This document shows, piece after piece, positions 1,711-34,673 of a stretch of 64,000 nucleotides of DNA. Origin of the DNA: Candidatus Gastranaerophilales bacterium (GTDB lineage Bacteria > Cyanobacteriota > Vampirovibrionia > Gastranaerophilales > Gastranaerophilaceae); NCBI GenBank assembly GCA_944322785.1, contig CALUPW010000001.1, positions 1-64,000 of the forward strand, in the 5' to 3' direction. Position numbers and translations under genes: made by a program. Below the pieces are notes generated by a model. It made no database searches. It had not been told where the DNA came from and saw only the letters and a program-made list of their open reading frames with translations. Position 1 is the stretch's first letter; every line of letters starts with the position of its first letter.

Positions 1711-1713
1711 GTA

Positions 1714-2313: not shown

Positions 2314-2323
2314 AGGTGTAGTT

Positions 2324-5300
2324 ATGAAGCTAAGAGAATTATTTGAGAAAGATATTAATAGGAACATTAATGGTGTTGTTAAAGTTGAGCAAGTTGATGA
2401 CGAAGCTATTATTTATCAAGAATTGGACGAATTTGTCGTTACAAAAGAACTTTCTAAGCATTTTAGCACTTTTTATAGTAATTATAAAAACTCATTTGAA
2501 GAAAGAACTGATAAAATCGGAGTATGGATTTCTGGTTTCTTTGGTTCTGGTAAATCTCACTTTTTAAAGATGCTATCATATCTACTTGCCAACAAAGAAG
2601 TAAAAGGTAAAAAAACAATAGAATTTTTTGAAGGGAAATCTAATATAGATGATTGGACTTTTGCTGATATGAAATTAGCTACATCTGTTCCTACAGAAAC
2701 TATTTTGTTCAACATTGATTCTAAAAGCTCAAAAGATACAAAACAAAGAAAAGATGGTATTGTTGAAGTCTTTTTAAAGGTCTTTAACGAATCTCAGGGT
2801 TACTCTGCAAACTACCCTAAACTTGCAGATATTGAAAGATACCTTGATAAAAATGGAAAATATGAAGAATTCAAACAAATTATAACCTCAGAAAGTGGTG
2901 TATCTTGGGAAGAAGCATCTAATGCAGTTGGATTCTTTAAAGACTTCTTTATAAAGGCTTATGTTCAAGTTACAGGGACAACAGAACAAAGTACACAAGA
3001 CTTATTTAAAGATGTTGTTGAGGATTCAGGGATTACACCTGAAGGGTTTGCAAAGCTAATAAAAGAATATCTTGAAAGTAAAGGTAGTAAGAATCGAATT
3101 ATTTTCTTAGTCGATGAAATTGGACAATTTATAAGCGATAATACAAACCTTATGCTTAGTTTACAGACAGTTGTTGAAAACTTGGGTACTATGTGTAATG
3201 GAAGAGCTTGGGTAATGGTAACATCTCAAGAAGCAATAGATTCTATAACAAAAGAACGTTTCAGAGACCAAGATTTCTCAAAAATCCAAGGCAGATTTGA
3301 TACAAAATTAAGTTTATCTGGTTCAAACACTGATGAAGTTATCAAACGAAGATTATTAGAAAAGAGAACAGATGCAAGAACTCTTCTTTCTAATTACTAC
3401 AACGAACAAGAAAAGATTTTGGCAAATTTAATAACATTTTCAAGCCAAACTTCTGGCATGAAAATGTATGAGAACTCAGATGATTTTGTTGATTGTTATC
3501 CATTTGTCCCATATCAATTCAAGTTGTTACAAAGTGTATTTACAGAGTTAAGAAACTTTTCTCATGCCGGGGCTCACTTAGCTTCGGGGGAGCGTTCTAT
3601 GCTTAATGCATTCCACACAGCATTAAAAGAGTATGGGGACAAAGAGATTACAGAATTAGTTCCATTTAATGTTTTTTATTCTACGATTCAAACCTTTATA
3701 GATACAGATATTGTCAGAATAATTGCACAAGCAAAAGAGGGTAATCCAGATATAGAAGATTTTGATATTGAAGTCTTAACTGTTTTATTCTTGATTAAAT
3801 ACATTAAAGAAGTTCCTTGTGATGTAGAAAATATTGCAACATTAATGATATCAAATATTAATGAAAGCAAAAATGCACTAAAATCCAAAATAGAAGGAGC
3901 TTTAACAAGATTAAAACAAGCTACATTAATACAACAAAATGGAGAAGAATATTCATTCTTAACAAACGAAGAACAAGATGTTACAAGAGGTATAAAAAAC
4001 ACTCAGATTGATTCTAGCGATGTATTAAATGAAGTCTATAGAAATATATATGAAGAAATTTATACTAAAAAGTCAATAACTCCATATCCTCAAGGGCAGT
4101 CTTATTATTTTGTAAGAAAAGTTGATGATGTAGTAAGAGGAAGCCAAGCAGAAGATATAGAAGTTAAATTTATCACTTCTATGAACTCTGATTATAAATT
4201 CAGCGAATCTGAACTAAAAATGAAGTTCCTTGCAGGAAATACATTATTTATCAAATTGAATGAAAACGGTTACCTACAAGAACTTGAAACTATCTTAAAA
4301 ACAGATAAGTATATCAAGCAAAAAAGCAGTGTAAAACAGTCTGAAATGCAGGATATGATATTAAAAAACAGAGGTGCTGAATTAATAGAACGCAAGAAAA
4401 GGGTGAAAACTTTATTAGAACAAGCTATTCTTGAATCTACTTTCTACACAAACGGTCAGATTATGGAAGTTAGTGCAACAAGTGCTGCTGCAAAGATTGA
4501 AAATGCTTTGAAACAAATTGTAGAAAATACATATACGAATCTTCATTTTATCCAAGAAAGAGTTAGGGATGAAAAAGAAATCCATGCAAAACTCATTGCT
4601 CCTCAAGGTAAATTGGATGAAAGAAACAAAAAAGCTCTTGATGATGTTTTAGCATTTATTCAACTAAATAACTCGATGAGTTGCACTGTTACAATGCAAG
4701 GATTAAAACAACAATATACAAGAAAACCTTTTGGTTGGTCTATAAATGATATTGCAGGTGTTGTAGCAGATTTAGCTGTTAAAGGAGATATTTCTATTCT
4801 CTATAATGGTGTTCAATGCAATTATCAGGATTATAATACAGTAAAATATTTGACAAATGACAGAGAAATTCAAAGCACTGTAATCAAATTGAAAGAAAAA
4901 ATAGATAGTGCAAAAATCCAGCAAGTAATAGCAATAGCACAAGAACTATTTGAAAAACAAGACTTTGTAGATGATGGAGAAAAACTTGCAAATTTAATAA
5001 GAGAAAATCTTCAAAATATGATTGGAGATTTACAAGAGCTTAATGGAAGACATAATAACCCAAAATATCCTAAAAAGACTGTTATTGAACTTGGTCTTTC
5101 TACATTAAAAGAGCTTAAGAATGAGCCAGATGTAAACGGATTATTTGATTTATTGATAAAGCAAAAGGATAATTTATTAACTTGGAAACAAGAATATAAA
5201 CTCCTAAAATCATTCTTTAATACTCAAGTTGGTATTTTTGATGAATCATTGAAAATATATGACAGAGTAAAAAGAAATGAAGTTTATTTAACAACTTTTG

Positions 5301-5887
5301 AATCAGAAGAGGTTGCTAAATTAAATGAACTAATTTCTAAACTTGAATCGATAATAGATTCTCCTGAACCATATTCTATGATTAAAGACCTTCCTGTCTT
5401 AAATTCGGATATAACTTCTATTGTTAATAATGTATTAGAAGATTATAAACAGGCATTAGGAGAAGTTATAAGTGATTTAGCTTATTATTTAGCAGAAGAA
5501 GCATCCAAACAGGGGCTTGAATGTGAAAGATATAGCAACTTATTCAAGATTAATGTTACTGATTTGTATGAAAGAGCAACTGATTTTGGAGTGTTAAAGG
5601 CTATTGAAGAAAAAGCAAAATTATATTATGAAAAACTTTTGAAACAAATTTCAGAAGATAGCATTGCGAAAAAGAATTTAGAATTACACCAACAAACAGG
5701 TACAGAAGAACATCCATACTCTGAACCAATGATTCAGAAAGAATTAGTATTCGTAAATCCTACAAATGTTGTTCAGAGTATGCAAATTCTTGAGACTGAA
5801 GAAGATGTTGATAACTATATCAACAAACTGTCAGAAGAGTTGAAAAACAGAATCAGGAACAATAAACGTATTAAACTTCAAGGCTAG
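2324..5887 (+). CDS. brxC: BREX P-loop ATPase BrxC
   Basis: A 1187-residue P-loop protein, full length for BrxC (about 1,200). The Walker A 'GFFGSGKSHF' is at about residues 69-78 and a Walker B-like 'IIFLVDEIGQF' at about 258-268. The C-terminal half is long and helical. An open frame extends back to 2270 inside brxB, but ATG 2324 gives the family's normal N-terminus (MKLRELFEKDINRNINGVV) and follows AAAGGTG, so it is chosen. BrxC (PglY-related) is the large ATPase of type 1 BREX, working with PglX and PglZ in modification and exclusion. An 88-bp spacer separates it from pglX. Confidence 0.93.
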   Translation: MKLRELFEKDINRNINGVVKVEQVDDEAIIYQELDEFVVTKELSKHFSTFYSNYKNSFEERTDKIGVWISGFFGSGKSHFLKMLSYLLANKEVKGKKTIEFFEGKSNIDDWTFADMKLATSVPTETILFNIDSKSSKDTKQRKDGIVEVFLKVFNESQGYSANYPKLADIERYLDKNGKYEEFKQIITSESGVSWEEASNAVGFFKDFFIKAYVQVTGTTEQSTQDLFKDVVEDSGITPEGFAKLIKEYLESKGSKNRIIFLVDEIGQFISDNTNLMLSLQTVVENLGTMCNGRAWVMVTSQEAIDSITKERFRDQDFSKIQGRFDTKLSLSGSNTDEVIKRRLLEKRTDARTLLSNYYNEQEKILANLITFSSQTSGMKMYENSDDFVDCYPFVPYQFKLLQSVFTELRNFSHAGAHLASGERSMLNAFHTALKEYGDKEITELVPFNVFYSTIQTFIDTDIVRIIAQAKEGNPDIEDFDIEVLTVLFLIKYIKEVPCDVENIATLMISNINESKNALKSKIEGALTRLKQATLIQQNGEEYSFLTNEEQDVTRGIKNTQIDSSDVLNEVYRNIYEEIYTKKSITPYPQGQSYYFVRKVDDVVRGSQAEDIEVKFITSMNSDYKFSESELKMKFLAGNTLFIKLNENGYLQELETILKTDKYIKQKSSVKQSEMQDMILKNRGAELIERKKRVKTLLEQAILESTFYTNGQIMEVSATSAAAKIENALKQIVENTYTNLHFIQERVRDEKEIHAKLIAPQGKLDERNKKALDDVLAFIQLNNSMSCTVTMQGLKQQYTRKPFGWSINDIAGVVADLAVKGDISILYNGVQCNYQDYNTVKYLTNDREIQSTVIKLKEKIDSAKIQQVIAIAQELFEKQDFVDDGEKLANLIRENLQNMIGDLQELNGRHNNPKYPKKTVIELGLSTLKELKNEPDVNGLFDLLIKQKDNLLTWKQEYKLLKSFFNTQVGIFDESLKIYDRVKRNEVYLTTFESEEVAKLNELISKLESIIDSPEPYSMIKDLPVLNSDITSIVNNVLEDYKQALGEVISDLAYYLAEEASKQGLECERYSNLFKINVTDLYERATDFGVLKAIEEKAKLYYEKLLKQISEDSIAKKNLELHQQTGTEEHPYSEPMIQKELVFVNPTNVVQSMQILETEEDVDNYINKLSEELKNRIRNNKRIKLQG

Positions 5888-5975
5888 GGGTAAATGGTGT
5901 AAATAGGAGTAACCATTATAGGATAAACTTAATCCCTAAAATATTGGAACTTTTCAAACTATAAAGGAAGTATTG

Positions 5976-8900
5976 ATGACAGAACTAATAGAAAACGAAA
6001 TAACATTAGATAAATCAGCACTAAAAGACTTTGCGATAAAAGCAAGAAGAAAACTTAAAGAAAGAGTTGAGCTTCAAGCAAAATTGATGGGATTTTATGA
6101 AGATAATAGAGCTGTCAATTATGAGTTTGAAGATGACAGACAAGTGAAAATAAATGGAGAGTTCTTTAGCAAAAAACAAGTTGAGACCTTACAACGAGAG
6201 ATTAAGTCAAAAGGTTATGAAAACTTGATTGATGAAGTTGCTTATACTTGGTTCAACAGATTCATAGCTCTATATTATATGGAAGTTAATGGCTATAGCG
6301 AAAATAATTTTAATATTATTTCCAATATAGATAACCTTAACCAATTTGCAGTATCTGTATCCTCACAGTTGAATGATGAAGAAAAACAAACTGTTATATC
6401 AGCTGTTCAAAATAATAATCAGGATACAATTTTTAAGACATTACTAATTCATCAATGTAATGTGATGAACAAAAAACTTCCATTCTTGTTTGAGCAAATC
6501 CAAGACTATACAGAACTATTATTCCCTCAAGGGATGAATAGTGCTGATTCTGTAATAAAAGAAATGCTATCTCTTGATAAATCCAACTGGCAAGTTGTAG
6601 AAATTATCGGCTGGCTTTATCAGTATTATAATCAAGCAGAAAAAGACAGAGTAATTCAAGCAAAGAAAAGATATAAAGCAAATGAAATTCCTTATGCTAC
6701 ACAATTATTTACACCCAAATGGATTGTAAAATATATGACTCAAAATTCTTTGGGTAGATTATGGCAAGAAGCTCACTCAACTTCAAAATTAAAAGATTCA
6801 ATGGAATTTTATCTTGAACCAAGACATCTTACGGATGAAGATAAAAAAGAACTAGAATCACATATAATGAAAGGTATTTTACCTGAACAAATAAAAGTTT
6901 TCGACCCTGCTTGTGGTTCTGGACACATTTTGGTTTACGCTTATAGTCTATTGTACTTGATGTATAAGGAATCAGGCTATATTGAGAGCGATATTCCAAG
7001 CCTAATATTAAAAAACAATTTATTTGGTCTTGATATATGTAATCGAGCTGTTCAATTAGCTCAATTTGCAGTCATGATGAGAGCATATCAAGACGATAAA
7101 AATATATTAAATAAGATAACATCTATAAATGTTATGTCAATTCAAGAAACTAACTGGATTGACGAAAGAGTAAAAGAAGCATTAATGAAAGATGTTGCTA
7201 ATCAATTATTGGCTCAACAACAAATAAACAACCTCATTGAAACCTTCAAAGATGCTAAAATATATGGCTCAATTATTAAAGTTAAAGACTTTGATTTTGA
7301 TTTCTGGGAACAACGTTTGATAGATATTCAGTCCTTGAATATGGGCTTGCTGTATTCAGATGTTGTTGAAGAATTGAAAACTAAATTGCCTCAATTAATC
7401 AAACAAGCTCGTATAATGCAACAACAATATGAATGTGTAATTACAAACCCTCCATATATGGGCAATAAGTATATGGAACCAAGATTAGCAGAATTCATAC
7501 AAAAAGAATATAAAGATGTAAAATCTGATTTATTTTCAGCTTTCATGGAATATATTCCAAGAAAAACAAATAAAAATGGACAAATTGGTTTAGTTACTCC
7601 GTTTGTTTGGATGTTTATAAAATCTTATGAAGAATTAAGAAATCAAATTATAAACAATAGCACTTTAAGTTCCATTATTCAACTAGAATATAACGCTTTT
7701 GAAGCAGCTTGTGTGCCAGTTACGACCTTTACATTAAGAAATTATAGGGTTTCTTATCCTGCTGAATGTATCAAATTGTCAGATTTTACAGGTGCAGAAA
7801 ATCAGCCAATTAAAACTTTAGAAGCTATATCTAATCCAGATGTTAGTTACAGATATACAACATATTCAAAGAATTTCCACTCAATACCGGGGTCTCCGAT
7901 TGCATACTGGGCTAGCGATAGAGTTAGAGAAATATTTAAAAACGAAGAACCTCTTGGTAAAATAGCTGAACCAAGACAAGGTATGGCGACAAGTGATAAT
8001 GAACGGTTTTTACGATTATGGAATGAAGTAAATATTTATAAAATTGGTTTTGGCTTTAAAAATAGAGAACTTGCCAAAGATAGCAAATTAAAATGGTTTC
8101 CATACAATAAAGGTGGAGAATACAGAAAATGGTTTAGATGTAATGATTATGTGGTCAATTGGTATAATGATGGTCAAGAAATAAAAGAATATAGAGAGTA
8201 TAAAAATTCCGTACTTTCATCTAATATGGGAGTAGCTGGTTTACCATTTATATTTAAAGAAAATATTAGCTGGTCAAAAATTACTTCTGGAGGAATCTCT
8301 TTGCGTTATATCCCCACAGGTTTTTTATTTGATGTTTCTGGGTGTTGTATTTTTATTAATGAAAATATTAAGTATATATTAGGGCTAATGAATTCTAATA
8401 TAATTAATCATTTAATACAAATGCTATCACCCACTGTAAATTATGAAGCTGGACAAATCGCATCTCTACCAATTATCTTTCCAAAAGATGAAAATATCAA
8501 AAAACAAATAGATTCAATAGTTGATGAAAACATACAAATATCAAAAGACGATTGGGATAGTTTTGAAACATCTTGGGATTTTGAACAACATCCATTGTTG
8601 AGATTCTCTAATAGAAATAAAGGTCTTGTTGACTACAAAAATATTCATAAAGTTGAACCTATTACAGCAGGAGATAAAGTTCAAGATTGTTTCAACAAAT
8701 GGAAAGAATATAAACAAGAACAATTTAACAAGCTAAAAGCTAATGAAGAAGAATTGAACAGATTGTTTATTGAAATTTATGGACTTCAAGATGAAATGAC
8801 TCCAGAGGTCGATGATAAAGATATTACAGTCGCTTTAGCAGATGAATTAAGGGATATAAAATCACTTCTATCTTATGCTGTTGGTTGTATGTTCGGTAGA

Positions 8901-9554
8901 TATTCTCTTGATGAAAAAGGATTAATATATGCTGGTGGAGAGTTTGACAAGAGCAGATATCAGGATTTAGAAGTTGATGAAGATGGTATTTTACCGATTC
9001 TTTCTGATACTTGGTTTGATGATGATATTATAGAAGAGTTCAAAAGGTTCTTGAAAAAAGCATTTGGCGAATTATATTTCAATGAGAATATGCAATATAT
9101 AGCAGATGTTTTAGGTCGCAAAGGTTCTGAAAGTGCAGAAGATAGAATTAGAACATATTTCTTGAAAGATTTCTACAAAGACCATTTGCAAATCTACAAA
9201 AAACGTCCTATTTACTGGATGTTTACAAGTGGAAAAGAAAAAGCTTTCAACGCTCTAATATACCTGCACAGGTATGATAAAACAACATTATCAAGAATAA
9301 GAAAAGATTATTTGCACGAGTTCCAAAACAAATTGGATAATGCAATACAAAGAGCAGAAAACGAAGGAAATGTTAAATTAACATCACTATATTCAAAATA
9401 TCAAACAGAATGCCTTGAATTTGATAGAAAGATTAAAGATTTAGCTGATGAGCAGATAGAACTAGACCTTGATGACGGTGTAAAAGTCAATTATGCAAAA
9501 TTCCAAGGACTACTCGAAGCAGAAAAAGATGTTGTAGGAAAGGATAAGAAATAG
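5976..9554 (+). CDS. pglX: BREX-1 adenine-specific DNA methyltransferase PglX
   Basis: A 1192-residue N6-adenine methyltransferase. SAM-binding motif I 'FDPACGSGH' lies at about residues 308-316 and catalytic motif IV 'NPPYMGNKYME' at about 489-499, the order of gamma-class enzymes. A C-terminal target-recognition region with 'TSGGISLRY' follows, then a long helical tail. Size matches BREX-1 PglX. It methylates one strand of an asymmetric BREX site to mark self DNA. ATG 5976 is preferred over TTG 5973 because AAGGAAG lies at proper spacing. No frameshift or homopolymer phase-variation tract is visible, so it appears intact and always on. Confidence 0.94.
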   Translation: MTELIENEITLDKSALKDFAIKARRKLKERVELQAKLMGFYEDNRAVNYEFEDDRQVKINGEFFSKKQVETLQREIKSKGYENLIDEVAYTWFNRFIALYYMEVNGYSENNFNIISNIDNLNQFAVSVSSQLNDEEKQTVISAVQNNNQDTIFKTLLIHQCNVMNKKLPFLFEQIQDYTELLFPQGMNSADSVIKEMLSLDKSNWQVVEIIGWLYQYYNQAEKDRVIQAKKRYKANEIPYATQLFTPKWIVKYMTQNSLGRLWQEAHSTSKLKDSMEFYLEPRHLTDEDKKELESHIMKGILPEQIKVFDPACGSGHILVYAYSLLYLMYKESGYIESDIPSLILKNNLFGLDICNRAVQLAQFAVMMRAYQDDKNILNKITSINVMSIQETNWIDERVKEALMKDVANQLLAQQQINNLIETFKDAKIYGSIIKVKDFDFDFWEQRLIDIQSLNMGLLYSDVVEELKTKLPQLIKQARIMQQQYECVITNPPYMGNKYMEPRLAEFIQKEYKDVKSDLFSAFMEYIPRKTNKNGQIGLVTPFVWMFIKSYEELRNQIINNSTLSSIIQLEYNAFEAACVPVTTFTLRNYRVSYPAECIKLSDFTGAENQPIKTLEAISNPDVSYRYTTYSKNFHSIPGSPIAYWASDRVREIFKNEEPLGKIAEPRQGMATSDNERFLRLWNEVNIYKIGFGFKNRELAKDSKLKWFPYNKGGEYRKWFRCNDYVVNWYNDGQEIKEYREYKNSVLSSNMGVAGLPFIFKENISWSKITSGGISLRYIPTGFLFDVSGCCIFINENIKYILGLMNSNIINHLIQMLSPTVNYEAGQIASLPIIFPKDENIKKQIDSIVDENIQISKDDWDSFETSWDFEQHPLLRFSNRNKGLVDYKNIHKVEPITAGDKVQDCFNKWKEYKQEQFNKLKANEEELNRLFIEIYGLQDEMTPEVDDKDITVALADELRDIKSLLSYAVGCMFGRYSLDEKGLIYAGGEFDKSRYQDLEVDEDGILPILSDTWFDDDIIEEFKRFLKKAFGELYFNENMQYIADVLGRKGSESAEDRIRTYFLKDFYKDHLQIYKKRPIYWMFTSGKEKAFNALIYLHRYDKTTLSRIRKDYLHEFQNKLDNAIQRAENEGNVKLTSLYSKYQTECLEFDRKIKDLADEQIELDLDDGVKVNYAKFQGLLEAEKDVVGKDKK

Positions 9555-9559
9555 GGTAA

Positions 9560-10327
9560 ATGGAAAAAGCAAAAAAGATACTTGATTGGATTTGGCTAAT
9601 AGTGAAAATTATCTTTGCGATAGCATTAGTTATCGTTGGGATTAAACTTATACTATGGCTAGTATTTCCATTATTTTCATTATGGTTTATTCCGTCTCCA
9701 TTTAGTTCATTTGACTGGAATCCTTTAACAACATTACTTGGAGCGATTATAACTGGTGGTATAACTTGGTATGCTGTTTATAAAACGTCAGAGCTTGATA
9801 AAAAAGCAAGAATATATGAATTCAGATACAAGAGCTATATTGAGCATTTGAACCTGTTAAACCAAGGAATACTCCCAATATACAGACTTACTTATTATTT
9901 TGAAAAAGATAAAGAAGAATGTTTAATTTCTAAAGCTATTACGGATGATAATCTTAATAAAGAATTTGAAATAAGGAGCTTTCTTAAAATCTATGAGTAT
10001 TTGTGTCAAATAAACAAAAACTTCAAAGCGAAAACGATTGAATTTAGAGAGCAAATAGATTCATTTCAAGCTGTATATAAGTTCCTACAAGATAACATAT
10101 GCGAACATCGTTGGTATCTTCAGCATAAACAAGACCCCAACATGGAGAAATACAAAAAAGACTTTGTTTTTGAATTAAAAGATGAAAAACTGATATATAG
10201 AGTTGATGAATTTTTGAATTATTACAAACAAAAAACTCAAGTGGATTACGATGTTGATAAAATGAAAAAAGCATTAAAAGACTTGAAAGAAATTATTACA
10301 AGTGAATTTAAGTTGGATAAAGAATAA
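9560..10327 (+). CDS. Membrane protein inserted between pglX and pglZ, unknown function
   Basis: A 255-residue protein with two N-terminal membrane segments: about residues 8-45 (a long hydrophobic run broken by prolines, 'LVFPLFSLWFIPSPF') and about 52-70 ('TTLLGAIITGGITWYAVY'). A charged, probably cytoplasmic helical domain of about 185 residues follows. It begins 5 bases after pglX, and its stop overlaps the pglZ start by one base, so it is certainly co-translated with BREX. It is not one of the six core type 1 genes. I do not recognise the family. It may be a membrane-bound accessory effector or an unrelated passenger; tight coupling favours a BREX-linked role. Confidence 0.8.
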   Translation: MEKAKKILDWIWLIVKIIFAIALVIVGIKLILWLVFPLFSLWFIPSPFSSFDWNPLTTLLGAIITGGITWYAVYKTSELDKKARIYEFRYKSYIEHLNLLNQGILPIYRLTYYFEKDKEECLISKAITDDNLNKEFEIRSFLKIYEYLCQINKNFKAKTIEFREQIDSFQAVYKFLQDNICEHRWYLQHKQDPNMEKYKKDFVFELKDEKLIYRVDEFLNYYKQKTQVDYDVDKMKKALKDLKEIITSEFKLDKE

Positions 10328-12837
10328 TGGAAACAGATAAATTACAAGAATTAATATTGAAACATTTTAACAAGCAAGAAAGACAAATTGTATTCTGGTA
10401 TGATGAAACTGGAGAAAATGAAGAAAAACTGGATTCATTATCTCTTCCTAATATTAAAATACACAAGCTCACAAAGAATAATAATCTTTTGACAAAAAAA
10501 TTGCTTGAAAAAGATGATACGACATCCAATTATCTTATTTATGCACCTTTTGAGATGCCTCCTATTGAAGATAACTGGTTTATTGATACACAACTATATT
10601 CACAAGTTCTATCTGTTGATGAGGTGGATAGTTTATGCTCCGAATTTGAAGTCTATGATATAGCAATTAAAAACCTCTTCAAAAACCATATAAAATTCTT
10701 TAATAATAAAAAAAGAATAAATAGTTTCAAATCTTTATTACCATCTAATAAGTCGGTAGAAAATTTCTACTTAGCAATGTTTGGAACTCTTGTCGAGTGC
10801 AAAATATTTGATAAGTACAAAATTATTCAAACCTTTATTATAAAAGAAATTGTTGATAAAAATGCTCCATCTAAAGAATTTGCTAAGTATGGATTGGAAG
10901 ATAAGTTTTGGGAATTAATAGAAAAAGAATTTGGCTACTTGGGAGAACGAGAAGCAAAATATCTATTAGCAGGAATTGTCTTTAAAAAACTGCAACAACA
11001 ACTCAGAGGTTCAAGTTTCCCTGATACTTATAAAAAATATATTAGTAAGAATATGAAAGAAGCTGAATGCAATTCATTCTTAGAAAGTTGGTTTCGTGAT
11101 ACAGAGCTTACGCCTTATTATAAAGAATTGATAGAAGAGTTTGAAAGAGAAGATTTCAAAATCGATGAGAATATTACAGACTGGTCTGATATATTACAAA
11201 GCGAACCTGAATTCCAAACTCTTAGAGCATATGATAGATTCCTTGTTAATTATTTGATTGCTCAATTTGATTCGTTAAAAGATGAAGATAAAATACTTAT
11301 TGAAAAAAGAAAAAGAACACTATTCTATAATGAGTATGAAAATGTTTATAATGCTCTTTTCTGGGCTTTGGAATTAAGTTTGTTAGTGAAAAATACTCAG
11401 ATTCCAGAGCAGAAAATTGAAACATTTATTAAAAGCTATGCTCAAAGTTATTACAAAATAGATAAAGCATATAGAAAATTCTATTACTATTGTGGATTAT
11501 TGAACGATAGAAAACTTGACTCTGTTAATGATAAAGTTGAGAAATTGTATGTAAACAAATATCTTGATGATATTAATTTGAAATTCTCTAACCAAGTAAA
11601 AGAAATTGCCCCTAACTGGACTTTTTCAAACCTTCCTATGCAAAAAGATTTCTATTACAATGAAGTACGTTCTTCTAAAAACAAACTTGTTGTTATAATT
11701 TCTGATGCATTGCGATATGAAATTGCAGAAGAATTAAGCGAGGCAATTAGAAGTAACTATTCAATTAAAGCCGATGTTAAACTGGATTGTATGGTCGCTT
11801 CAATCCCTTCTTATACAAGATTGGGGATGGCTTCATTGCTTCCTCATAAAGAAGTTTCTATGAATAATAAAGCTGAAATTGTTGTAGATGGAGTAGTTGC
11901 AAAGGATTCTGCATCAAGAGAAAAAATATTGCAAGCACATAATCCAAACTCAAAAGTTTTGAATTTAAGTGATTTAGAAGATATGTCAAGAGATGATTTA
12001 AGAACTCTATTTAGTGGATTAGAGATTGCTTATATTTATCATGATGACATTGATAAAGCTGGTGAACATAATGAAAAAGATGTGTTTAATGCTGCTGAAA
12101 AAACTGTAAAAATACTTTCAGAAAAAATTAAGTTTTTGTTCAATAATTCTTTGTGTAGCAATGTAATTATTACCGCAGACCACGGTTTCTTATATCAATA
12201 TAGCGATTTAGAAGAACATCAAAAGATTACAATAGGCACTATTGATTCTATTGAGTGTAAAAAAAGGTATATTATTGGAACTTCTCCAGTAGAAAAGCAG
12301 GGTATCGTTGATTTTGATATGAATTATATATTCAAAAATTCCGATTTAAAATTGTCGTTGCCATGCAATATTAATAGATTTAAAACTTCTGGAGCTGGCA
12401 TAAATTACGTTCATGGAGGAGCTAGTCCTCAAGAAATAGTATTACCTCTTTTGAGAGTTAAGCAAAACCGTAAACAAGAAATTAAGAAAGTAGAACTTTC
12501 ACTAGAAAACTCTTCTCGAAAGATTACCAATAATAAGTTCACATTATCATTCTTGCAAAAAGAAAGCATTTCTGAGCTTGTTAAACCAAGAGTATTCAGT
12601 GTTTCTTTATGGGATGAAGAAAATAATATGCAAGTATCTAATGAACTTATTATAGATGCAAATATTAGTTCTGATAAAATGGAAGATAGAATATTCAAAA
12701 AAGTATTAGAACTAAAAAGTTTTGATGCAGATAAAAACAAAGATTATTACTTGATTATAAAAGATGTAGATGAGGTTGGTGAACCATATGCAAAAATCCC
12801 ATTTACAATAAATTTAATGTTCCAGTCAGATTTTTAA
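10327..12837 (+). CDS. pglZ: BREX-1 phosphatase-like protein PglZ (type A)
   Basis: An 836-residue protein. The central alkaline-phosphatase-superfamily core shows metal-binding motifs 'VVIISDALRYEIAEEL' (about residues 454-469) and 'NVIITADHGFLYQ' (about 611-623), plus 'VHGGASPQEIVLPL' near 697, all typical of PglZ. The N-terminal 400 residues are helical and charged. PglZ is the hallmark gene of all BREX systems; a metal-dependent phosphatase or nuclease role is discussed for the family. The start overlaps the stop of the preceding membrane-protein gene (TAATG). brxL follows after 12 bases with its own AGGTGA Shine-Dalgarno. Confidence 0.94.
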   Translation: METDKLQELILKHFNKQERQIVFWYDETGENEEKLDSLSLPNIKIHKLTKNNNLLTKKLLEKDDTTSNYLIYAPFEMPPIEDNWFIDTQLYSQVLSVDEVDSLCSEFEVYDIAIKNLFKNHIKFFNNKKRINSFKSLLPSNKSVENFYLAMFGTLVECKIFDKYKIIQTFIIKEIVDKNAPSKEFAKYGLEDKFWELIEKEFGYLGEREAKYLLAGIVFKKLQQQLRGSSFPDTYKKYISKNMKEAECNSFLESWFRDTELTPYYKELIEEFEREDFKIDENITDWSDILQSEPEFQTLRAYDRFLVNYLIAQFDSLKDEDKILIEKRKRTLFYNEYENVYNALFWALELSLLVKNTQIPEQKIETFIKSYAQSYYKIDKAYRKFYYYCGLLNDRKLDSVNDKVEKLYVNKYLDDINLKFSNQVKEIAPNWTFSNLPMQKDFYYNEVRSSKNKLVVIISDALRYEIAEELSEAIRSNYSIKADVKLDCMVASIPSYTRLGMASLLPHKEVSMNNKAEIVVDGVVAKDSASREKILQAHNPNSKVLNLSDLEDMSRDDLRTLFSGLEIAYIYHDDIDKAGEHNEKDVFNAAEKTVKILSEKIKFLFNNSLCSNVIITADHGFLYQYSDLEEHQKITIGTIDSIECKKRYIIGTSPVEKQGIVDFDMNYIFKNSDLKLSLPCNINRFKTSGAGINYVHGGASPQEIVLPLLRVKQNRKQEIKKVELSLENSSRKITNNKFTLSFLQKESISELVKPRVFSVSLWDEENNMQVSNELIIDANISSDKMEDRIFKKVLELKSFDADKNKDYYLIIKDVDEVGEPYAKIPFTINLMFQSDF

Positions 12838-12849
12838 GGCAGGTGAAAA

Positions 12850-14898
12850 ATGAACAATTTAGATAAGAAAATTACAGAAACATTTGAAGGTTGTGTTGTA
12901 AGGAAAGACTTAGTAAAAGAAGTTAAAGGGAATGCTATTGTTCCTTCATACGTCTTAGAATATTTACTTGGACAATATTGTGCATCAAGTGATGAAGATG
13001 TAATTAAATCAGGAATTGAATCAGTAAAAGAAATTCTAGCAAAACACTATGTTAATAGAAACGAAGCAGAATATATTAAATCTACTATTAAAGAAAAAGG
13101 ACACTACAAAGTAATTGATAAGGTAAGTGTTCAATTTAATGAAAAAACAGATTCTTATATTGCTACATTTTCAAATCTAGGAATAACAGGGATTAATGTC
13201 CCATCTGAAATAGCTTATAAAAAGTATCCAAGATTATTGGTTTCAGGAATTTGGTGTCTAGCAGACCTTGAATATCAATATACTGAAGATAAAAAGGCTT
13301 GCCCTTGGTTGTTGCAGAACATCAAACCTATTCAACTTGCACAGTTTGATTTTGAAGATTTTAAAGCAAAAAGAGCAATGTTTTCTACTGATGAATGGAT
13401 TGATTTACTTATGCAAAGTATAGGTTTTAATCCAGAAATGCTTAGCAGAAGAAAGAAATTACTACAGCTTGTCAGACTTATTCCATACTGTGAAAGAAAT
13501 TATAATTTTATAGAACTTGGACCTAAAGGAACTGGTAAAAGTCATATCTATACAGAATTTTCACCTCATGGTACTTTAATTTCTGGAGGAGAAGTCTCTG
13601 CTGCAAAATTATTTGTGAATAATTCAAGAAAACATGATATTGGTTTAGTTGGGTACTGGGATAATATTGCATTTGATGAGTTTGCAGGTAGCTCAAAGAA
13701 AGTTGATAAAGCTCTTGTTGATATAATGAAAGGTTATATGGCTAACAAGTCATTCTCTAGAGGCGTTGAAACACTAACGGCAGAAGCATCAATGACATTT
13801 ATTGGTAATACAAAGCACAATGTTCCTTATATGTTAAAACATTCTAATTTGTTTGAAGAATTACCTCCTCAATATTTAGATTCAGCATTTCTTGATAGAA
13901 TTCATTTCTATTTACCGGGATGGGAAGTTGATGTTACTAGACCAGAATTATTTACAACAAACTATGGTTTTGTTGTCGATTATTATTCTGAAGCTTTAAA
14001 ATGTCTAAGAAATTACGATTTTTCTAATGAGTACAAGAATGAGTTTACTCTTGGCAATATCTCAGAACGTGATAGAGCTGGTGTTATGAAGACCTTCTCT
14101 GGTCTTATGAAGATTATTTATCCTGATAAAAAGGCTTCATGCCAAGAAATAGAAGAGTTATTAAAATTTGCAATGGAAGGAAGAAAAAGAGTCAAAGACC
14201 AGATTTTAAGAATAGACTCGACTCTTCCACAAGTAGATTTTTCATATACAAGTAATTCTGGAGTCGAAGTTAAAGTAAAAACAACTGAAGAAATTCAATA
14301 TAAAGGATTATATAATGGAGAAATGGAAGACTCCGAAGACGAAGTTATGATAAGTTCTCCAGAAGTTGTTGAAGTAATAAATGATAGTTCTAAAGAAACT
14401 GCAACTAATGAAGAAGAAATTAAAGAACATCATTTTGTAATTGAAGAAAATCAAATTGGGGTTACGTTTGAAAAGCTGTTTGGAAGATTATTTAAAGGGG
14501 TAAAAAATATTGTTATTACTGACCCTTATATAAGAAATTTCTACCAAACTGTAAACTTAATGGAATTATTAGAAGTTGTAGATAAAGCGAAATCTGAAAC
14601 AGATATTGTTACTGTTGAATTAATAACTTCTGCTGATGAATTTAATGAACAAATACAGCGTGAAAACTTAAATACCATAAGAGAATCTTGCTTACAAATG
14701 GGTATTGAATTTAGTTATCAATTCGATTCAAGTATTCATGCAAGAAGTATTGTTACTGATACTGGATGGAAAGTTTTATTAGATAGAGGACTTGATATAT
14801 TCCAAAATTGTGAAAGAAAAGATGCATTTCAATTCACAACAAGATTACAAAAGTACAGACCTTGTAAAAAATTTGAGATAACATATTTGAGAACATAA
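12850..14898 (+). CDS. brxL: BREX Lon-like AAA ATPase BrxL with C-terminal MIT_C-like domain
   Basis: 682 residues. An N-terminal DNA-binding-like region (about 1-200) precedes an AAA ATPase with Walker A 'LGPKGTGKSHIY' (about 222-233), Walker B-like 'DNIAFDEFAG' (about 274-283) and 'AFLDRIHFYLPGWE' near 350. After about residue 450 there is an acidic linker, then about 150 residues that do not look like a Lon peptidase: no Ser-Lys dyad motif is seen. Instead the pattern DPYIRN, ELITSAD, SSIHARSI, GW-LLDRGLDIFQ, YRPCKKFEITYL parallels the MIT_C (phospholipase D-like) domain known from eukaryotic MITD1. BrxL acts in phage exclusion. It ends the BREX core; the next gene starts 6 bases later. 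Confidence 0.92.
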   Translation: MNNLDKKITETFEGCVVRKDLVKEVKGNAIVPSYVLEYLLGQYCASSDEDVIKSGIESVKEILAKHYVNRNEAEYIKSTIKEKGHYKVIDKVSVQFNEKTDSYIATFSNLGITGINVPSEIAYKKYPRLLVSGIWCLADLEYQYTEDKKACPWLLQNIKPIQLAQFDFEDFKAKRAMFSTDEWIDLLMQSIGFNPEMLSRRKKLLQLVRLIPYCERNYNFIELGPKGTGKSHIYTEFSPHGTLISGGEVSAAKLFVNNSRKHDIGLVGYWDNIAFDEFAGSSKKVDKALVDIMKGYMANKSFSRGVETLTAEASMTFIGNTKHNVPYMLKHSNLFEELPPQYLDSAFLDRIHFYLPGWEVDVTRPELFTTNYGFVVDYYSEALKCLRNYDFSNEYKNEFTLGNISERDRAGVMKTFSGLMKIIYPDKKASCQEIEELLKFAMEGRKRVKDQILRIDSTLPQVDFSYTSNSGVEVKVKTTEEIQYKGLYNGEMEDSEDEVMISSPEVVEVINDSSKETATNEEEIKEHHFVIEENQIGVTFEKLFGRLFKGVKNIVITDPYIRNFYQTVNLMELLEVVDKAKSETDIVTVELITSADEFNEQIQRENLNTIRESCLQMGIEFSYQFDSSIHARSIVTDTGWKVLLDRGLDIFQNCERKDAFQFTTRLQKYRPCKKFEITYLRT

Positions 14899-17623: not shown

Positions 17624-18985
17624 ATGCAAATTTGTTTAAAAAAACTTAGTTATGAAAATATTGAATCTTCAAAAGAAATACAAAAATGGCTTAGCCAATT
17701 TAAAGAAGATGAAAAAAAGATTTTATATGATCTACTTTTACATCTTGTATTTATATCAAGAGACACCTTTTCTGAATGGTGCAATAATAAAATAGGGCAA
17801 CTATTAAAAGAATACCCGAAAGAAAAATTTGCATTATATTGTGTAAGAGACCTTGAAGCCAATTTTTATTGGGATGATGCTTCTGGTGAAATTGCTTTAA
17901 GAACTGTTAAATATCAAGGAAGCGAAGATTTTGTATGTTCAATTGTTGGTAATTTTGCAAAATTACACAGCAATTGCTACGAACATGCAAGTATTTCAAC
18001 TTTAAAAAAACATAAAATCCATAAAATTATTTTTATTGATGATTCTATTGGTAGCGGAAGAAAAGTATCGACATTTTTAAAAAAGGTCTTTAATAATAAA
18101 ACTTTTTTAAGCTGGTGGAATTATAATTTAATAAAGATATATATTATTTCTTTTGCGAGGACAAAAAAAGCAGAAGAATATATCATTAAATCTCTTCCCG
18201 GAATAGAACATTATACAAGAAAATACCCTAAAAGTAACAAAATATGTTTCATTAGCCGTATTGTTTATAGAAAAGATGATTTAGAAAAAAGATGGGGAAA
18301 AAATTATGTTGAAATTAAAAATCTTTGCGGAAAACAAACAGGTATAAAAAACAATAAGTATGGATTTGGGAAAGTAATGTCAAACATTGTTTTTTATCAT
18401 AGTATTCCAAACAATATTCCCGGAATTCTTTTCCTTTCAACAGAAAACAAAGAAGCTTTATTTGATAGTTCCAGAGTTTTTCCTAAATGGTTAATTGATT
18501 TGTTAGCAAAGACAAGTACTTCAAATAAAATTACAGATAAGAAACTTATGAATGAATTTCTTATGCATATTAAACGAGGAATACGAAAAAAATCAAGTAT
18601 TGCTTTAGCCATGGATTGCGACGTAATGATTGTAGATACATTAATAAATCAGGCAATAATATTAAACTTAATTGACAATAATTTTATTATTACCAAAGCG
18701 GGAATGGATTTTTTGAAGAAAAATAAATTTTGTAATAAAATAGAATATAATAAAAGTTTGTATATACCTAAAAAATGGTGTATTAATCAAGCTTCTGCTC
18801 AGCCGTTCGCTAATAATATGCGAACAGATTCAGATAATATTAATTATAATTTATCTGATGGGGGATTCGGATTGAATTCTCTGGAAAGAACTGACGAAAT
18901 AACGGCAAAGCCGTCCTCTATCATTGAACCTATCTATCCATCGGGGTCTCGGGTGCGCTTCAATGATAAAGGTCATGAAGACTAA
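17624..18985 (+). CDS. Retron accessory protein: phosphoribosyltransferase fold plus winged helix
   Basis: 453 residues. The motif 'KIIFIDDSIGSGRKVSTFL' (about 134-152) is the PRPP-binding loop signature of type I phosphoribosyltransferases (hydrophobic strand, two acidic residues, then a G-S-G turn). The region about 310-375 ('SIALAMDCDVMIVDTLINQA' then 'ILNLIDNNFIITKAGMDFL') reads as a winged helix-turn-helix. PRTase-like proteins are recorded as effectors of one class of retron, recalled as type III. The last 66 codons (from 18786) are embedded in the retron RNA and encode a low-complexity tail, so the real C-terminus is set by the ncRNA rather than by a domain. Its stop lies 12 bases before the RT gene. 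Confidence 0.75.
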   Translation: MQICLKKLSYENIESSKEIQKWLSQFKEDEKKILYDLLLHLVFISRDTFSEWCNNKIGQLLKEYPKEKFALYCVRDLEANFYWDDASGEIALRTVKYQGSEDFVCSIVGNFAKLHSNCYEHASISTLKKHKIHKIIFIDDSIGSGRKVSTFLKKVFNNKTFLSWWNYNLIKIYIISFARTKKAEEYIIKSLPGIEHYTRKYPKSNKICFISRIVYRKDDLEKRWGKNYVEIKNLCGKQTGIKNNKYGFGKVMSNIVFYHSIPNNIPGILFLSTENKEALFDSSRVFPKWLIDLLAKTSTSNKITDKKLMNEFLMHIKRGIRKKSSIALAMDCDVMIVDTLINQAIILNLIDNNFIITKAGMDFLKKNKFCNKIEYNKSLYIPKKWCINQASAQPFANNMRTDSDNINYNLSDGGFGLNSLERTDEITAKPSSIIEPIYPSGSRVRFNDKGHED

Positions 18986-19009
18986 AGGAGTAGTGAGTGG
19001 AAGCTTGGT
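18786..19009 (+). ncRNA. Retron msr-msd RNA overlapping both flanking genes
   Basis: The a1 arm (18786-18801) and a2 arm (18994-19009) pair over 16 contiguous positions: 13 Watson-Crick and 3 G-U. Immediately after a1 comes G18802 in the context CAGCC, the expected branching guanosine. The msr hairpins are GTTCGC/GCGAAC (18805-18810 with 18820-18825) and TCAGATAA/TTATCTGA (18830-18837 with 18851-18858). The msd hairpin has TATCATTGAA/TTCAATGATA (18919-18928 with 18959-18968, perfect), extended by CCT/AGG past one C-A mismatch. A small ACGGC-AAA-GCCGT hairpin (18902-18914) precedes it. The order a1, G, msr, msd, a2, RT is canonical. It lies wholly within the effector 3' end and RT start. Confidence 0.85.
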
Positions 19010-20130
19010 CAATACATCACTTAATAAAAGAAGCTAATAGACAAGGTAATCTTAGCAAAGAAAGTATTATAGATTTACAGTGCTATGCCCAAAATTTGAT
19101 TAAAAATGACGTTCCTGTTATTTTTACATTAATGCATTTAGCATTTATTACAAATCTTAATTATGATTTTCTGTATGGAACAGTATCAAGACGTTTTGAT
19201 AAATCAAATTATAGAATGTTTTCCATAAGGAAACGGAATGGAAAACATAGGTTTATTCATGCTGCAATAAAAAATTTGCATATATTACATAATTACATAA
19301 ATAAAGAAATTTTAAAAAATATTCCAATTCATCCCTGTGCCTATGCTTTTAATAGAAATGGAGGAATATTAAAATGTGCACAGAAGCATTGTGGTTGTGA
19401 GTGGTTATTACAATTTGATTTAAAAGATTTTTTCTTTAGTATTACAGAAAGTAATGTATACAATGTTTTTAAATCTATAGGCTATAAAGATATTTTGGCA
19501 TTTGAACTAGCTAGAATTTGTACAACTACAAGATTACCGCGTTCGTATAATATGCCTCGAAATAAAAATGCCTATAATTATAAACAATATAAATATGATT
19601 TGATTGGGGTATTACCCCAAGGAGCTGCCACGAGTCCCGCATTAAGTAATCTGGTAGCAAAAAATCTGGATGAAGAGTTACAAGAGTATGCGAAAAATCT
19701 TGGTTTTGTATACACAAGATATGCTGACGATTTAACCTTTTCTACAGTGAGTTTACCAAATAATTTATCTATAGATACAATAAGGAAGCAAATTATTAAA
19801 ATTATTAGAAAAAATCATTTCATAGAAAATAAAGAGAAAAGTAGAATTGCTGGCCCCGGAGCAAAAAAATTAGTATTAGGTCTTTTAGTAGATGGAAAAC
19901 AACCTCGAATATCGAAAGAAGGATTTAAAAGGATTGAGGGATTACTATATATTATTAAAAAGTTTGGATTGCAATCTGTTGCAAAGGAGAGAGGATTTTA
20001 TTCTACATATGGTTTAATGAACCATTTGATAGGACTTATGGCATACTTAAAAGATGTTGATATTGCTAAATATAACAAAATTGAACCTTTATTTTCTGAA
20101 ATAAAAAGTAGATATGGTGAATTATTTTAA
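18997..20130 (+). CDS. Retron reverse transcriptase
   Basis: A 377-residue RT. Seen are palm motif 'LLQFDLKDFFFSI' (first catalytic Asp 141), 'LPQGAATSPALSN' (206-218) and the catalytic box 'YTRYADDLTFS' (YADD 242-245). The region usually containing the retron VTG signature reads 'LVLGLLVDG' (292-300), with Leu in place of Thr. Size and organisation match retron RTs with no extra fused domain. The only plausible start is GTG 18997, which lies inside the a2 arm of the msr-msd RNA, so RNA folding could modulate RT translation. The enzyme would prime from the 2'-OH of G18802 to make msDNA, whose integrity guards the PRTase effector. Confidence 0.92.
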   Translation: MEAWSIHHLIKEANRQGNLSKESIIDLQCYAQNLIKNDVPVIFTLMHLAFITNLNYDFLYGTVSRRFDKSNYRMFSIRKRNGKHRFIHAAIKNLHILHNYINKEILKNIPIHPCAYAFNRNGGILKCAQKHCGCEWLLQFDLKDFFFSITESNVYNVFKSIGYKDILAFELARICTTTRLPRSYNMPRNKNAYNYKQYKYDLIGVLPQGAATSPALSNLVAKNLDEELQEYAKNLGFVYTRYADDLTFSTVSLPNNLSIDTIRKQIIKIIRKNHFIENKEKSRIAGPGAKKLVLGLLVDGKQPRISKEGFKRIEGLLYIIKKFGLQSVAKERGFYSTYGLMNHLIGLMAYLKDVDIAKYNKIEPLFSEIKSRYGELF

Positions 20131-31813: not shown

Positions 31814-32303
31814 ATAAGTTCTCCTTCTCATGCTCTTTGATTATTCTGTCAATCTCATCTCTTGCTTCCAGCTTTGATTTAAGCTCTTTTTTTTCAATAC
31901 TATACTTTTTACAAAGCCTTTCATAATAGTATAGCTGCTTTTTGGTCGGAAGTTCATGCCCCATTTTGACTTCCCGCAAAAAAGCCCGCTTTTTCTTTTC
32001 AAATTCCTTCTGCGCCTTTAATATCGGCTCCTGAGATTTTTTATAATCATAGTATTTGCGGCACTCATTCATAAACATTTGTGCATCATGCCGAAAGTTC
32101 TCATCCTCCAGATGTTCCGCAAGAAATTCAAAATGCGGATTGTTAATCTCCAAATAATACATTTCATCATCAATAAAATTATTGAAAAGCTGCTCTACAT
32201 CAATGTTTGGCGACTTTTTGACAAGAGCACGCAAAAAACTGCACAGCATTGATTTCTGTGTTTTCGTAAACTCTTGAAATACTTGATTTTTTACGTTATA
32301 CAT
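31803..32303 (-). CDS. Charged helical orphan protein
   Basis: 166 residues, highly charged, predicted helical with a coiled-coil stretch ('LKAQKEFEKKKRAFLREVKM', about 96-115) and a C-terminal motif 'LPTKKQLYYYERLCKKYSIE' (about 119-138). The latter resembles the short helical 'T-x-x-Q-x-x-Y-x-x-x-L' segment found in DnaB-loader-like or phage-type helical proteins. No family can be named with confidence. It is the second gene of the operon and starts 3 bases after the stop of the 56-aa gene. Confidence 0.65.
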   Translation of the reverse strand: MYNVKNQVFQEFTKTQKSMLCSFLRALVKKSPNIDVEQLFNNFIDDEMYYLEINNPHFEFLAEHLEDENFRHDAQMFMNECRKYYDYKKSQEPILKAQKEFEKKKRAFLREVKMGHELPTKKQLYYYERLCKKYSIEKKELKSKLEARDEIDRIIKEHEKENLYGI

Positions 32304-32306
32304 TCC

Positions 32307-32477
32307 CTACTTTTTGAACAAGTCTTTTACAGTAAAAGTTTCAGCCTTTTCAAAATGAAATTTCGCAAGCTTTTTTACAATCGGATTTGTCTGGTGTTTT
32401 GCTTTGTTTGTTTCTTTTTCCGGCACAACATCAGTTTTACCCTCATTTTTTATGACTGTAAACTCTCTTTTATCCAT
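32307..32477 (-). CDS. Short 56-residue orphan protein leading the minus operon
   Basis: ATG 32477 to TAG 32307 on the minus strand encodes 56 residues beginning MDKREFTVIKNEGKTDVVPE and ending with a helix FEKAETFTVKDLFKK. The frame is clean, lysine-rich and uses codons like its neighbours, and its stop is 3 bases before the next ORF's ATG, so coupling is likely. Function unknown. It lies directly beside the candidate replication origin. Confidence 0.6.
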   Translation of the reverse strand: MDKREFTVIKNEGKTDVVPEKETNKAKHQTNPIVKKLAKFHFEKAETFTVKDLFKK

Positions 32478-33144
32478 AAATAAATTATACCTCTTTATAT
32501 TTATATAAAAAAGTTTGTTAAGAATTAATTGCCAAACAAATATATAAAAATTATATATTGTTACAAAACTTTACATGTTGTTTTTTATTAATTGCATGCC
32601 CTATAATAAAAAACCCGGGAATTGTTTACATGCCCCGAGAAGCTTTATAATAAAGAGTTTTAACCGAAAAAGAAAGTCTCGTCAATTGACAAGACTTATA
32701 AATATACATTTACCCCACAATCTTTATATCATAAAACGAATATAAAGTCAAGCACTCCAAACAGTTAAAAATCAATTACCTTATCGGGTAATCCGTTGTA
32801 GAAAACCATGTAGATTTTTGTAGAAAACTCATGAGTTTTCTACAAACAACCCTGTATATAAAACATATTTAATTCTTTTCTACATTGGTATGTCAAATTT
32901 TCTACACTCTTTTCTACACTTCATGATTATAGATATGAGATAGTTTTGATAGGTTTTCTACAAATATTTCTCTCTTACTACTACTATTATTTATATATAT
33001 TTATTATATTTATATATAATAAGAGATTTTGAGTAGAAAACTTAAAACGTGAATTTTTGTTTTATTTTTTGAATTGAGTAAGTTTTTATATTCTGTTTAT
33101 TATATAATTTTATTATATTAGGGAGTTAAAAAAAGGAGTAAGGT
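32478..33144. other. Candidate chromosomal origin (oriC) region upstream of dnaN
   Basis: This 667-bp gene-free gap holds seven exact copies of the 9-mer TTTTCTACA: plus strand at 32836, 32876, 32898, 32910 and 32954; minus strand at 32797-32805 and 32819-32827. One near copy is at 33032-33040. The 9-mer differs at two positions from E. coli's DnaA box TTATCCACA and at one from TTTTCCACA. Two copies form the outer arms of a perfect 30-bp palindrome at 32817-32846. Twelve bases after the last plus-strand box is the triplet run TTA-CTA-CTA-CTA-TTA (32975-32989), like a DnaA-trio, then a nearly pure A/T tract to about 33020. With dnaN next door this is the layout of oriC. A further near-palindrome of 24 bp is at 32674-32697. 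Confidence 0.65.
32817..32846. repeat. 30-bp perfect palindrome built from two TTTTCTACA boxes
   Basis: The sequence is self-complementary over 30 bp around CTCATGAG. Its arms are the box in minus orientation (32819-32827) and in plus orientation (32836-32844). It would be a strong paired DnaA-binding site if the 9-mer is this lineage's DnaA box. Confidence 0.7.
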
Positions 33145-34266
33145 ATGAAATTTTATGTAAAAAAAGAAGATTTATATAACGGGATAAAAATTGTTGAAAG
33201 AGCAACCAGCATGAAAGCTTTGCAGCCGGTACTTTTAAATATATTAATAGAAACAGTTGATAACGGAACCATAAGACTGGTTGCAACAGATTTGGATATG
33301 ACGGTTGTTGCACTTGTTGATGCGCAGGTTGAAGAATCAGGCAGAATTACATTGCCTTCGAAGAAACTTAATGAAATAGTTTCCAAACTTGGTGACAAGC
33401 TTATAACTTTTGAAATGGCAGAAGGCGAAAGCACAGTAAATATTACATGTCAGAATTCAAAGTTTGATATTATCGGAATTTCAGCAAACGAATTTCCTCC
33501 GGAGGTTTATAATATTGAACTTAATGACGAAAACAGTTTTGAAATAGCAGTCAAACCTTTGACAAAAGCTGTGCGTCAGGCAGGTTTTGCAGCCGCAAGC
33601 TACGAAACGTCAAACCTTTTGTCCGGTATTGTGTGTGATATTTCAGGCGAAGTTCTGGAGATTGCATCAACTGACGGAAACCGTCTTGCACGTGTTCGTG
33701 AAAAAATTGAAAACAAAGACGGCAGAACAAGCCAGCTGATTATTCCTTCAAAGACATTAAATGAATTTATAAAAATGAGTTCATTTATTGAAGAAGATTC
33801 TGTTAAAATTTATACGGAACGCACAAAACTGATTATAAAAAGTGACAGAACAATGACAGTTTCAAGACTTCTTGAGGGTCAATTCCCAAAATACAATCAA
33901 CTTATACCGAATGAAAGCCCTAAAGAAGCACTGGTATCGGTTTCTGCTTTGATTTCTGCATTAGAGCGTGTGTCAATTATGGTTGATGATAAAACTAGCA
34001 TTGTAAAACTTGCGTTTTCAAACGGTAAATTAAAACTTACAGCAGACACGCCTGACAGCGGTAAATCGGAAGAAGAACTTGATATTGTTTATAACTGTGA
34101 AGATTTGGATATTGCATTCAACTACAAGTTTGTTCTGGAAGCTTTAAAAAATATGGATTGCGATAATGTAAAAATAGGCTTAAACACAAGTCTTTCAGCA
34201 ACAGTTTTAAGACCTGACTGCGAAGACGATTTTGTATGTTTGATTATGCCGGTTCAAATAAAATAA
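33145..34266 (+). CDS. dnaN: DNA polymerase III beta sliding clamp
   Basis: 373 residues, the normal clamp length, made of three similar domains. 'MKFYVKKEDLYNGIKIVERA' opens the protein; 'LVATDLDMTVVALV' (about 52-65), 'GNRLARVREKIE' (about 185-196, domain 2 H/R-L pattern), 'LLEGQFPKYNQLIPNE' and the C-terminal 'LIMPVQIK' are clamp signatures. It forms the DNA-encircling ring that tethers polymerase III. It is preceded by AAAAAAGGAG and by the candidate oriC. dnaA is not in the window, and dnaN leads a short group with two unrelated genes. Confidence 0.97.
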   Translation: MKFYVKKEDLYNGIKIVERATSMKALQPVLLNILIETVDNGTIRLVATDLDMTVVALVDAQVEESGRITLPSKKLNEIVSKLGDKLITFEMAEGESTVNITCQNSKFDIIGISANEFPPEVYNIELNDENSFEIAVKPLTKAVRQAGFAAASYETSNLLSGIVCDISGEVLEIASTDGNRLARVREKIENKDGRTSQLIIPSKTLNEFIKMSSFIEEDSVKIYTERTKLIIKSDRTMTVSRLLEGQFPKYNQLIPNESPKEALVSVSALISALERVSIMVDDKTSIVKLAFSNGKLKLTADTPDSGKSEEELDIVYNCEDLDIAFNYKFVLEALKNMDCDNVKIGLNTSLSATVLRPDCEDDFVCLIMPVQIK

Positions 34267-34274
34267 GGTGAATA

Positions 34275-34673
34275 ATGAAAGATAAAGCAATAGAATATTA
34301 TATGAACGGCGGCTGCTCTTGCAGTGAAAGTGTAATAAAAGCAGCAATAGATGAAGGTTTGTGTGACAAATCTTTGCTCGCTGCTGCATCGGCATTTTCA
34401 GGCGGCATGTCCTCAGGCTGCGTGTGTGGTGCAGTTGCGGCTGCCCAGATAATTTCCGGAATTCATTTCGGGCGGGAAAATCACTTCGGAAACGAAAATA
34501 CAGCCCGAGAAAAAGCAGCATTTATTGTTGATGAATTTAAGAAAAAACACAAAGTAACCTGCTGCCGTGTGCTTTCAAAAGGTTTGCAGGGGATTGAAAG
34601 AAAGCAGAATTGTTCAAAATATGTTGCGGATGCATGTGATATTGTTGAACAACTGCTGAAGGTGAAGGTTTAG
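34275..34673 (+). CDS. C_GCAxxG_C_C family putative redox protein
   Basis: 132 residues. Conserved cysteines and glycines are in the order of this family: 'GGCSCSESVIKAA' (about 13-25), 'FSGGMSSGCVCGAVAAAQII' (about 42-61) and late 'VTCCRVLSKGL' and 'KYVADACDIVEQLL'. The family is thought to bind a metal or be redox-active; its reaction is unknown. It lies 8 bases after dnaN (AAGGTG upstream) and 3 bases before nfo, so the three are one transcript. Confidence 0.85.
   Translation: MKDKAIEYYMNGGCSCSESVIKAAIDEGLCDKSLLAAASAFSGGMSSGCVCGAVAAAQIISGIHFGRENHFGNENTAREKAAFIVDEFKKKHKVTCCRVLSKGLQGIERKQNCSKYVADACDIVEQLLKVKV

Follow-up and report, generated by a model that had tools for sequence, protein, structure and literature searches.

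Does the intergenic gap in front of dnaN in this bacterium hold the origin of chromosome replication, and does its repeated 9-mer represent a DnaA box with an altered base? Few protein-DNA pairs of bacteria are as conserved as DnaA and its box. The stretch of DNA analyzed here (64,000 nt, referred to as the window) comes from the Gastranaerophilales, an order of the Melainabacteria, which are the non-photosynthetic sisters of the Cyanobacteria. A first-pass annotation of the sequence had read the gap as a candidate oriC whose box carries T at a position usually occupied by C. We find an origin of ordinary type, in which the unusual feature is a box altered throughout the class together with a matching change in the initiator. 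Handles of the G012, f15, g2 and L069 type are our internal labels for genomes, families, genera and DNA stretches, respectively.

A single cluster of predicted DnaA boxes upstream of dnaN

The following features were mapped in the window:

32479–33144, no strand: intergenic region, almost certainly oriC; box cluster unique in the genome, GC-skew minimum at 32,921
32797–32805, minus: predicted DnaA box TTTTCTACA, exact match, position kept within the genus
32819–32827, minus: predicted DnaA box TTTTCTACA, exact match, in the palindrome
32836–32844, plus: predicted DnaA box TTTTCTACA, exact match, in the palindrome
32817–32846, no strand: perfect 30-bp palindrome with two head-to-head boxes inside; its 26-bp core also occurs in displaced modules of other genera
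32853–32861, minus: possible weak box TTATATACA, a variant with T at position 6
32876–32884, plus: predicted DnaA box TTTTCTACA, exact match
32898–32906, plus: predicted DnaA box TTTTCTACA, exact match
32910–32918, plus: predicted DnaA box TTTTCTACA, exact match
32954–32962, plus: last predicted DnaA box TTTTCTACA, exact match, beside the unwinding site; most relatives have spacer and trio after it
32975–32992, plus: DnaA-trio run TTACTACTACTATTATTT, 12 nt past the last box, kept with variants across families
32993–33023, no strand: AT-rich tract, likely the unwinding element (A+T is 90% over 32977–33025)
33145–34266, plus: dnaN, DNA polymerase III subunit beta (TIGR00663, 282.9 bits, cut-off 137.65)

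The DnaN protein is up to 96% identical to Candidatus Gastranaerophilales MAG records. Directly 3' of dnaN lies a gene for a C-GCAxxG-C-C family protein (34275–34673, plus strand, TIGR01909).

Within 166 bp upstream of dnaN the 9-mer TTTTCTACA occurs in seven exact copies, five of them on the plus strand and two on the minus strand. The window as a whole holds 12 copies against 1.6 expected from shuffled sequence, and the genome 50 copies in 1.95 Mb, with the group in front of dnaN as the sole cluster. At the background rate, the Poisson probability of seven boxes in 166 bp is about 2e-21, or about 3e-15 genome-wide; chance clustering is ruled out by this value together with the genome-wide uniqueness. 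Position 6 is T in 7/7 boxes where the canonical TTWTNCACA has C, and no canonical TTWTNCACA box is present within the gap. The first-pass annotation had described seven exact 9-mers in about 170 bp, a box pair in a 30-bp palindrome, a run of CTA triplets and an AT-rich tract immediately upstream of dnaN, and had considered such a density very unlikely by chance; all of this agrees with our mapping, as does its statement that T replaces C in the box.

The next closest pair of TTTTCTACA copies lies on contig C5 at a distance of 90 bp (G000:C5:70583 and 70673). It is intergenic, ahead of a 376-aa ORF, and an Rfam search of this pair gave no match. A structured RNA at the origin region itself was also considered and was rejected since Rfam returned no match in 32000–34000.

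Spacer, trio run and AT-rich tract

In the basal unwinding system (BUS) a box is followed by a spacer no longer than about 16 bp and by at least three trios (PMC8287927), with spacer lengths reported to peak at 10–13 bp (PMC8287927). The arrangement found here has a 12-nt spacer followed by CTA trios, and, as expected of an oriC, an AT-rich element adjoins the boxes at 32977–33025, as read from the sequence. The module shares with the BUS of Bacillus subtilis and others the succession of box, spacer (12–14 nt), CTA-type trios and AT-rich tract. It differs in that its box is not of the TTWTNCACA type, and its unwinding is predicted from sequence.

By analogy, DnaA would fill the seven TTTTCTACA boxes, and from the dnaN-proximal box, over the 12-nt spacer, it would be loaded onto the trio run in its single-stranded form. 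DnaA bound to the trios would stretch the opened strand and open the adjoining AT-rich tract.

Conservation and displacement of the module

The sequence upstream of dnaN was taken from about 50 genomes belonging to the order. When repeated 9-mers were ranked without prior selection, TTTTCTACA came first, and 33 genomes hold three or more copies of it. Most of the genus shares the position, the inverted triplet and the trio. In other families of the order the last box and the trio persist at a spacer of about 14 nt, and some of these families show tandem boxes at 11-bp spacing. The module of boxes, 12–14 nt spacer, CTA trio run and AT-rich tract is repeated across families of Gastranaerophilales. 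The boxes upstream of dnaN are kept across the order, and the same trio design is also found in other families of the class. No clear boxes were identified upstream of dnaN in families f11, f12 and f14.

Some genera (g2, g8) are without boxes at dnaN and carry the entire module 4–47 kb away: the distance is about 4–6 kb in five genomes (G014, G020, G141, G154 and G175), 37 kb in G184 and 47 kb in G181. The displaced modules (L353, L354, L352, L365, L356, L357 and L360) mostly come with a spacer and a trio variant. In several of them the trio run has the form TGATGATGAT.

The GC-skew minimum coincides with the boxes

Cumulative GC skew over 20–124 kb of the contig has its minimum at 32,921, within the cluster. 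The first 20 kb, with the BREX and retron genes, were excluded from this range by our choice; when they are included the minimum lies near the contig start, those 20 kb running counter to the trend. The BREX set looks complete (BrxA, BrxB, BrxC, PglX, PglZ and BrxL; 1090–14898, plus strand, padloc) and occupies a low-GC island at the end of the contig, counter to the local GC skew. It is followed by a type III-A retron pair of PRTase-like effector and reverse transcriptase (17624–20130, plus strand, padloc).

The skew was also determined for relatives, of which G046 and G059 are better assembled. G046 belongs to a different family of the order and consists of three contigs; there the sign of the skew flips at dnaN, sampled stretches being negative to the left and positive to the right save one at 760 kb, and the minimum within 224–304 kb is at 262,798. 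The complete single contig of G059, from another family of the class, has its minimum within 1,700–1,780 kb at 1,737,688, about 0.2 kb off its third box, and the opposite switch falls between about 0.6 and 0.8 Mb. In G012 the skew is flat around dnaN and carries no information. Where dnaN is displaced, the minimum is found near the boxes: in G181 it lies at 94.1 kb, with the boxes at 95.6 kb and dnaN at 142 kb; in G184 at 71.2 kb, with the boxes at 70.85 kb and dnaN at 34.3 kb; and in G020 at 59.0 kb, closer to the boxes (53.8 kb) than to dnaN (48.4 kb). Since the minimum is at the boxes even in genomes with a displaced dnaN, it is the origin that the cluster marks, not a control element of dnaN. 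The gap in the window is almost certainly where copying of the chromosome starts.

An origin at dnaA was considered as well. The dnaA gene of this genome is on a different contig from dnaN (L069:8793–10190, minus strand) and its region is without a box cluster, so this candidate was rejected.

Position 6 of the box is altered throughout the class

Boxes were counted up to 500 bp upstream of dnaN in 85 genomes of the class and 17 of other Cyanobacteriota. The class has 212 TTWTCTACA (about 2 expected from shuffles) and 0 TTWTCCACA; the other Cyanobacteriota have 44 TTWTCCACA and 0 TTWTCTACA. Fewer boxes with A at position 6 (A6) are also present in the class, namely 51 of TTTTGAACA and 18 of TTWTCAACA. 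Four genomes (G018, G025, G030 and G031) have mostly TTTTGAACA in place of TTTTCTACA, some at 11-bp spacing, with Lys at DnaA residue 433. The boxes with T6 still have C at positions 5 and 8, and C6 is absent from families f8 and f9 even though most of their stretches read have about 46–53% G+C; the change is therefore not merely AT drift. T6 instead of C6 of the bacterial consensus TTWTNCACA is class-wide. No earlier description of the altered box or of Melainabacteria origins was found in the literature searched, which does not prove absence, and a search for TTTTCTACA returned only unrelated papers among the matches listed.

DnaA residue 433 differs from the outgroup

For Asp433 of DnaA, high conservation in all classes has been reported. 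Residues 433–434 are highly conserved in surveyed Proteobacteria and Actinobacteria (PMC5043019), and the contact reported for D433 is with position 7 rather than 6 (PMC8235120). The DnaA of this genome is full-length with AAA+ and domain IV (TIGR00362, 479 bits over a cut-off of 343.9). We aligned domain IV with chains of 1J1V, 3PVP and 8BTG, using E. coli residue numbering. The E. coli sequence GGRDHTT aligns with NKKHTT, which places Lys instead of Asp at position 433, so that domain IV is indeed changed at a base-contacting residue. Asp433 was found in 15/15 outgroup DnaAs and in 0/68 of the class, which have 50 Lys, 7 Thr, 5 Arg, 3 Gly, 2 Gln and 1 Asn. Residue 433 is the sole column of domain IV that fully separates class and outgroup; the second-best column is variable, with a divergence of 0.67. 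In family f11 (L382, L383, L238) the recognition helix reads GRGNS compared to GRDHT, H434 being lost as well, and the region upstream of dnaN gave no box cluster.

Judged from the alignment, residue 433 at the start of the recognition helix is most likely the protein change that matches T6, and we infer that it sets the base at position 6. The carboxylate of Asp433 could act as hydrogen-bond acceptor for the neighbouring amino groups on C6 and A7, which would be consistent with position 6 as well as with position 7; Lys433 could instead donate a hydrogen bond to O4 of T6. The changes from Asp to Lys and from C to T probably represent one evolutionary event, and the genomes are therefore not independent evidence.

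We also asked whether a code of one residue for one base exists, with pairings read at the trio-adjoining box; this box was chosen by a loose trio pattern, and the code was sought after seeing the data. Asp433 occurs with C6 (5/5 found). The trio-adjoining box of Lys433 genomes has T in 27/34, A in six and C in one (G086), the last probably a misassignment. All three genomes of family f15 combine Arg433 with the G6 box TTATTGACA; this family has six TTWTTGACA against 0.08 expected and also five A6 matches against 0.45 expected. Gln433 is paired with A6 in G059, where three TTATCAACA (0.01 expected) are joined by three more about 3 kb on. All six copies of TTATCAACA within 80 kb of G059 form two triplets about 3 kb apart, which flank the dnaN start (L395–L398, C1:1737347–1737475 and 1740422–1740467), making a two-part origin possible in this genome. 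G014 and G028 have Arg433 yet T6 boxes and some A6 boxes are used by Lys433 genomes, which weakens a strict code. The proposal that Asp reads C, Lys reads T with A tolerated, Gln reads A and Arg reads G, with a class-wide rewiring and further switches inside the class, is therefore put forward tentatively, as a conjecture that falls somewhat short of probable.

Alternative explanations

The 9-mers might be operators for dnaN transcription, bound by another regulator or by DnaA, with the origin elsewhere. DnaA regulates genes through its boxes in some bacteria, and here, as in most relatives, the cluster directly precedes dnaN. An operator would not account for the trio and AT-rich tract that belong to the module, and in G181 and G184 module and skew minimum are found together 37–47 kb from dnaN. 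This explanation was rejected on the latter ground and we regard it as very unlikely. Still more improbable, to a degree that makes it negligible, is an origin of the repeats as iterons or as the relic of a replication region from an integrated plasmid or phage: clustered copies of one 9-mer do look iteron-like, but the cluster is kept across families of the order, the trio design recurs in other families of the class and the skew minima are located at the repeats.

A more serious alternative accepts the origin and its DnaA boxes and attributes position 6 to AT drift combined with a permissive DnaA, residue 433 not being a specificity determinant. In its favour, the order has AT-rich genomes, boxes of T6 and of A6 type occur in the class, residue 433 is variable among class members, T6 is kept in the Arg433 genomes G014 and G028, and there is only a single main event. 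Against drift, C is retained at positions 5 and 8, families of about 46–53% G+C are without C6 as well, G6 with Arg433 in f15 is not a product of AT drift, and 433 is the only fully discriminating column. We consider this explanation unlikely, while giving it far more weight than the other two.

We hold with considerable confidence to the reading as a whole, that is, an oriC with seven DnaA-bound boxes, unwinding by box, spacer and trio, T6 throughout the class and residue 433 as the most likely matching change. The computational observations comprise the conserved cluster, the skew minima, the boxes separated from dnaN in some genomes and the exclusive association of residue 433 with position 6. 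All in-silico checks run on the oriC proposed in the first-pass annotation favoured it, namely the skew switch at the cluster in its own contig (20–124 kb) and at the site in G046 and G059, the lack of TTTTCTACA clustering at any other locus of the genome, conservation and the domain IV change. Our analysis goes further in that the box change is class-wide and tracks residue 433, and in that boxes and skew minimum remain together in genomes with a displaced dnaN.

Comparison with known origins

The oriC of Synechococcus elongatus, Anabaena and Cyanothece is also located beside dnaN with several 9-mers, and its box TTTTCCACA is one base apart from TTTTCTACA (PMC4674748). Those origins combine C6 with Asp433, whereas the one described here combines T6 with Lys433. 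Lineage-specific changes of box and recognition helix have likewise been described for Epsilonproteobacteria with TTCATTCACA-like boxes (PMC5043019); there T is fixed at position 5 while C6 and D433 are kept, and residues 435, 438 and 439 are suspected. Thermotoga maritima similarly has a divergent box, the 12-mer AAACCTACCACC, and divergent domain IV contacts (PMC7561715, PMC10225481), but its box is wholly different in length and sequence, in contrast to the one-base change inside a 9-mer seen here.

A class in which both sides have changed would show how an essential pair of initiator and origin can be rewired, and its natural variants of DnaA and box are ready material for a simple specificity-swap experiment. 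Origin-finding software looks for TTATCCACA or TTTTCCACA; the altered box would let it locate the origins of this lineage, which is common in the gut and mostly uncultured, and origins located in this way would improve growth-rate estimates from metagenomes.
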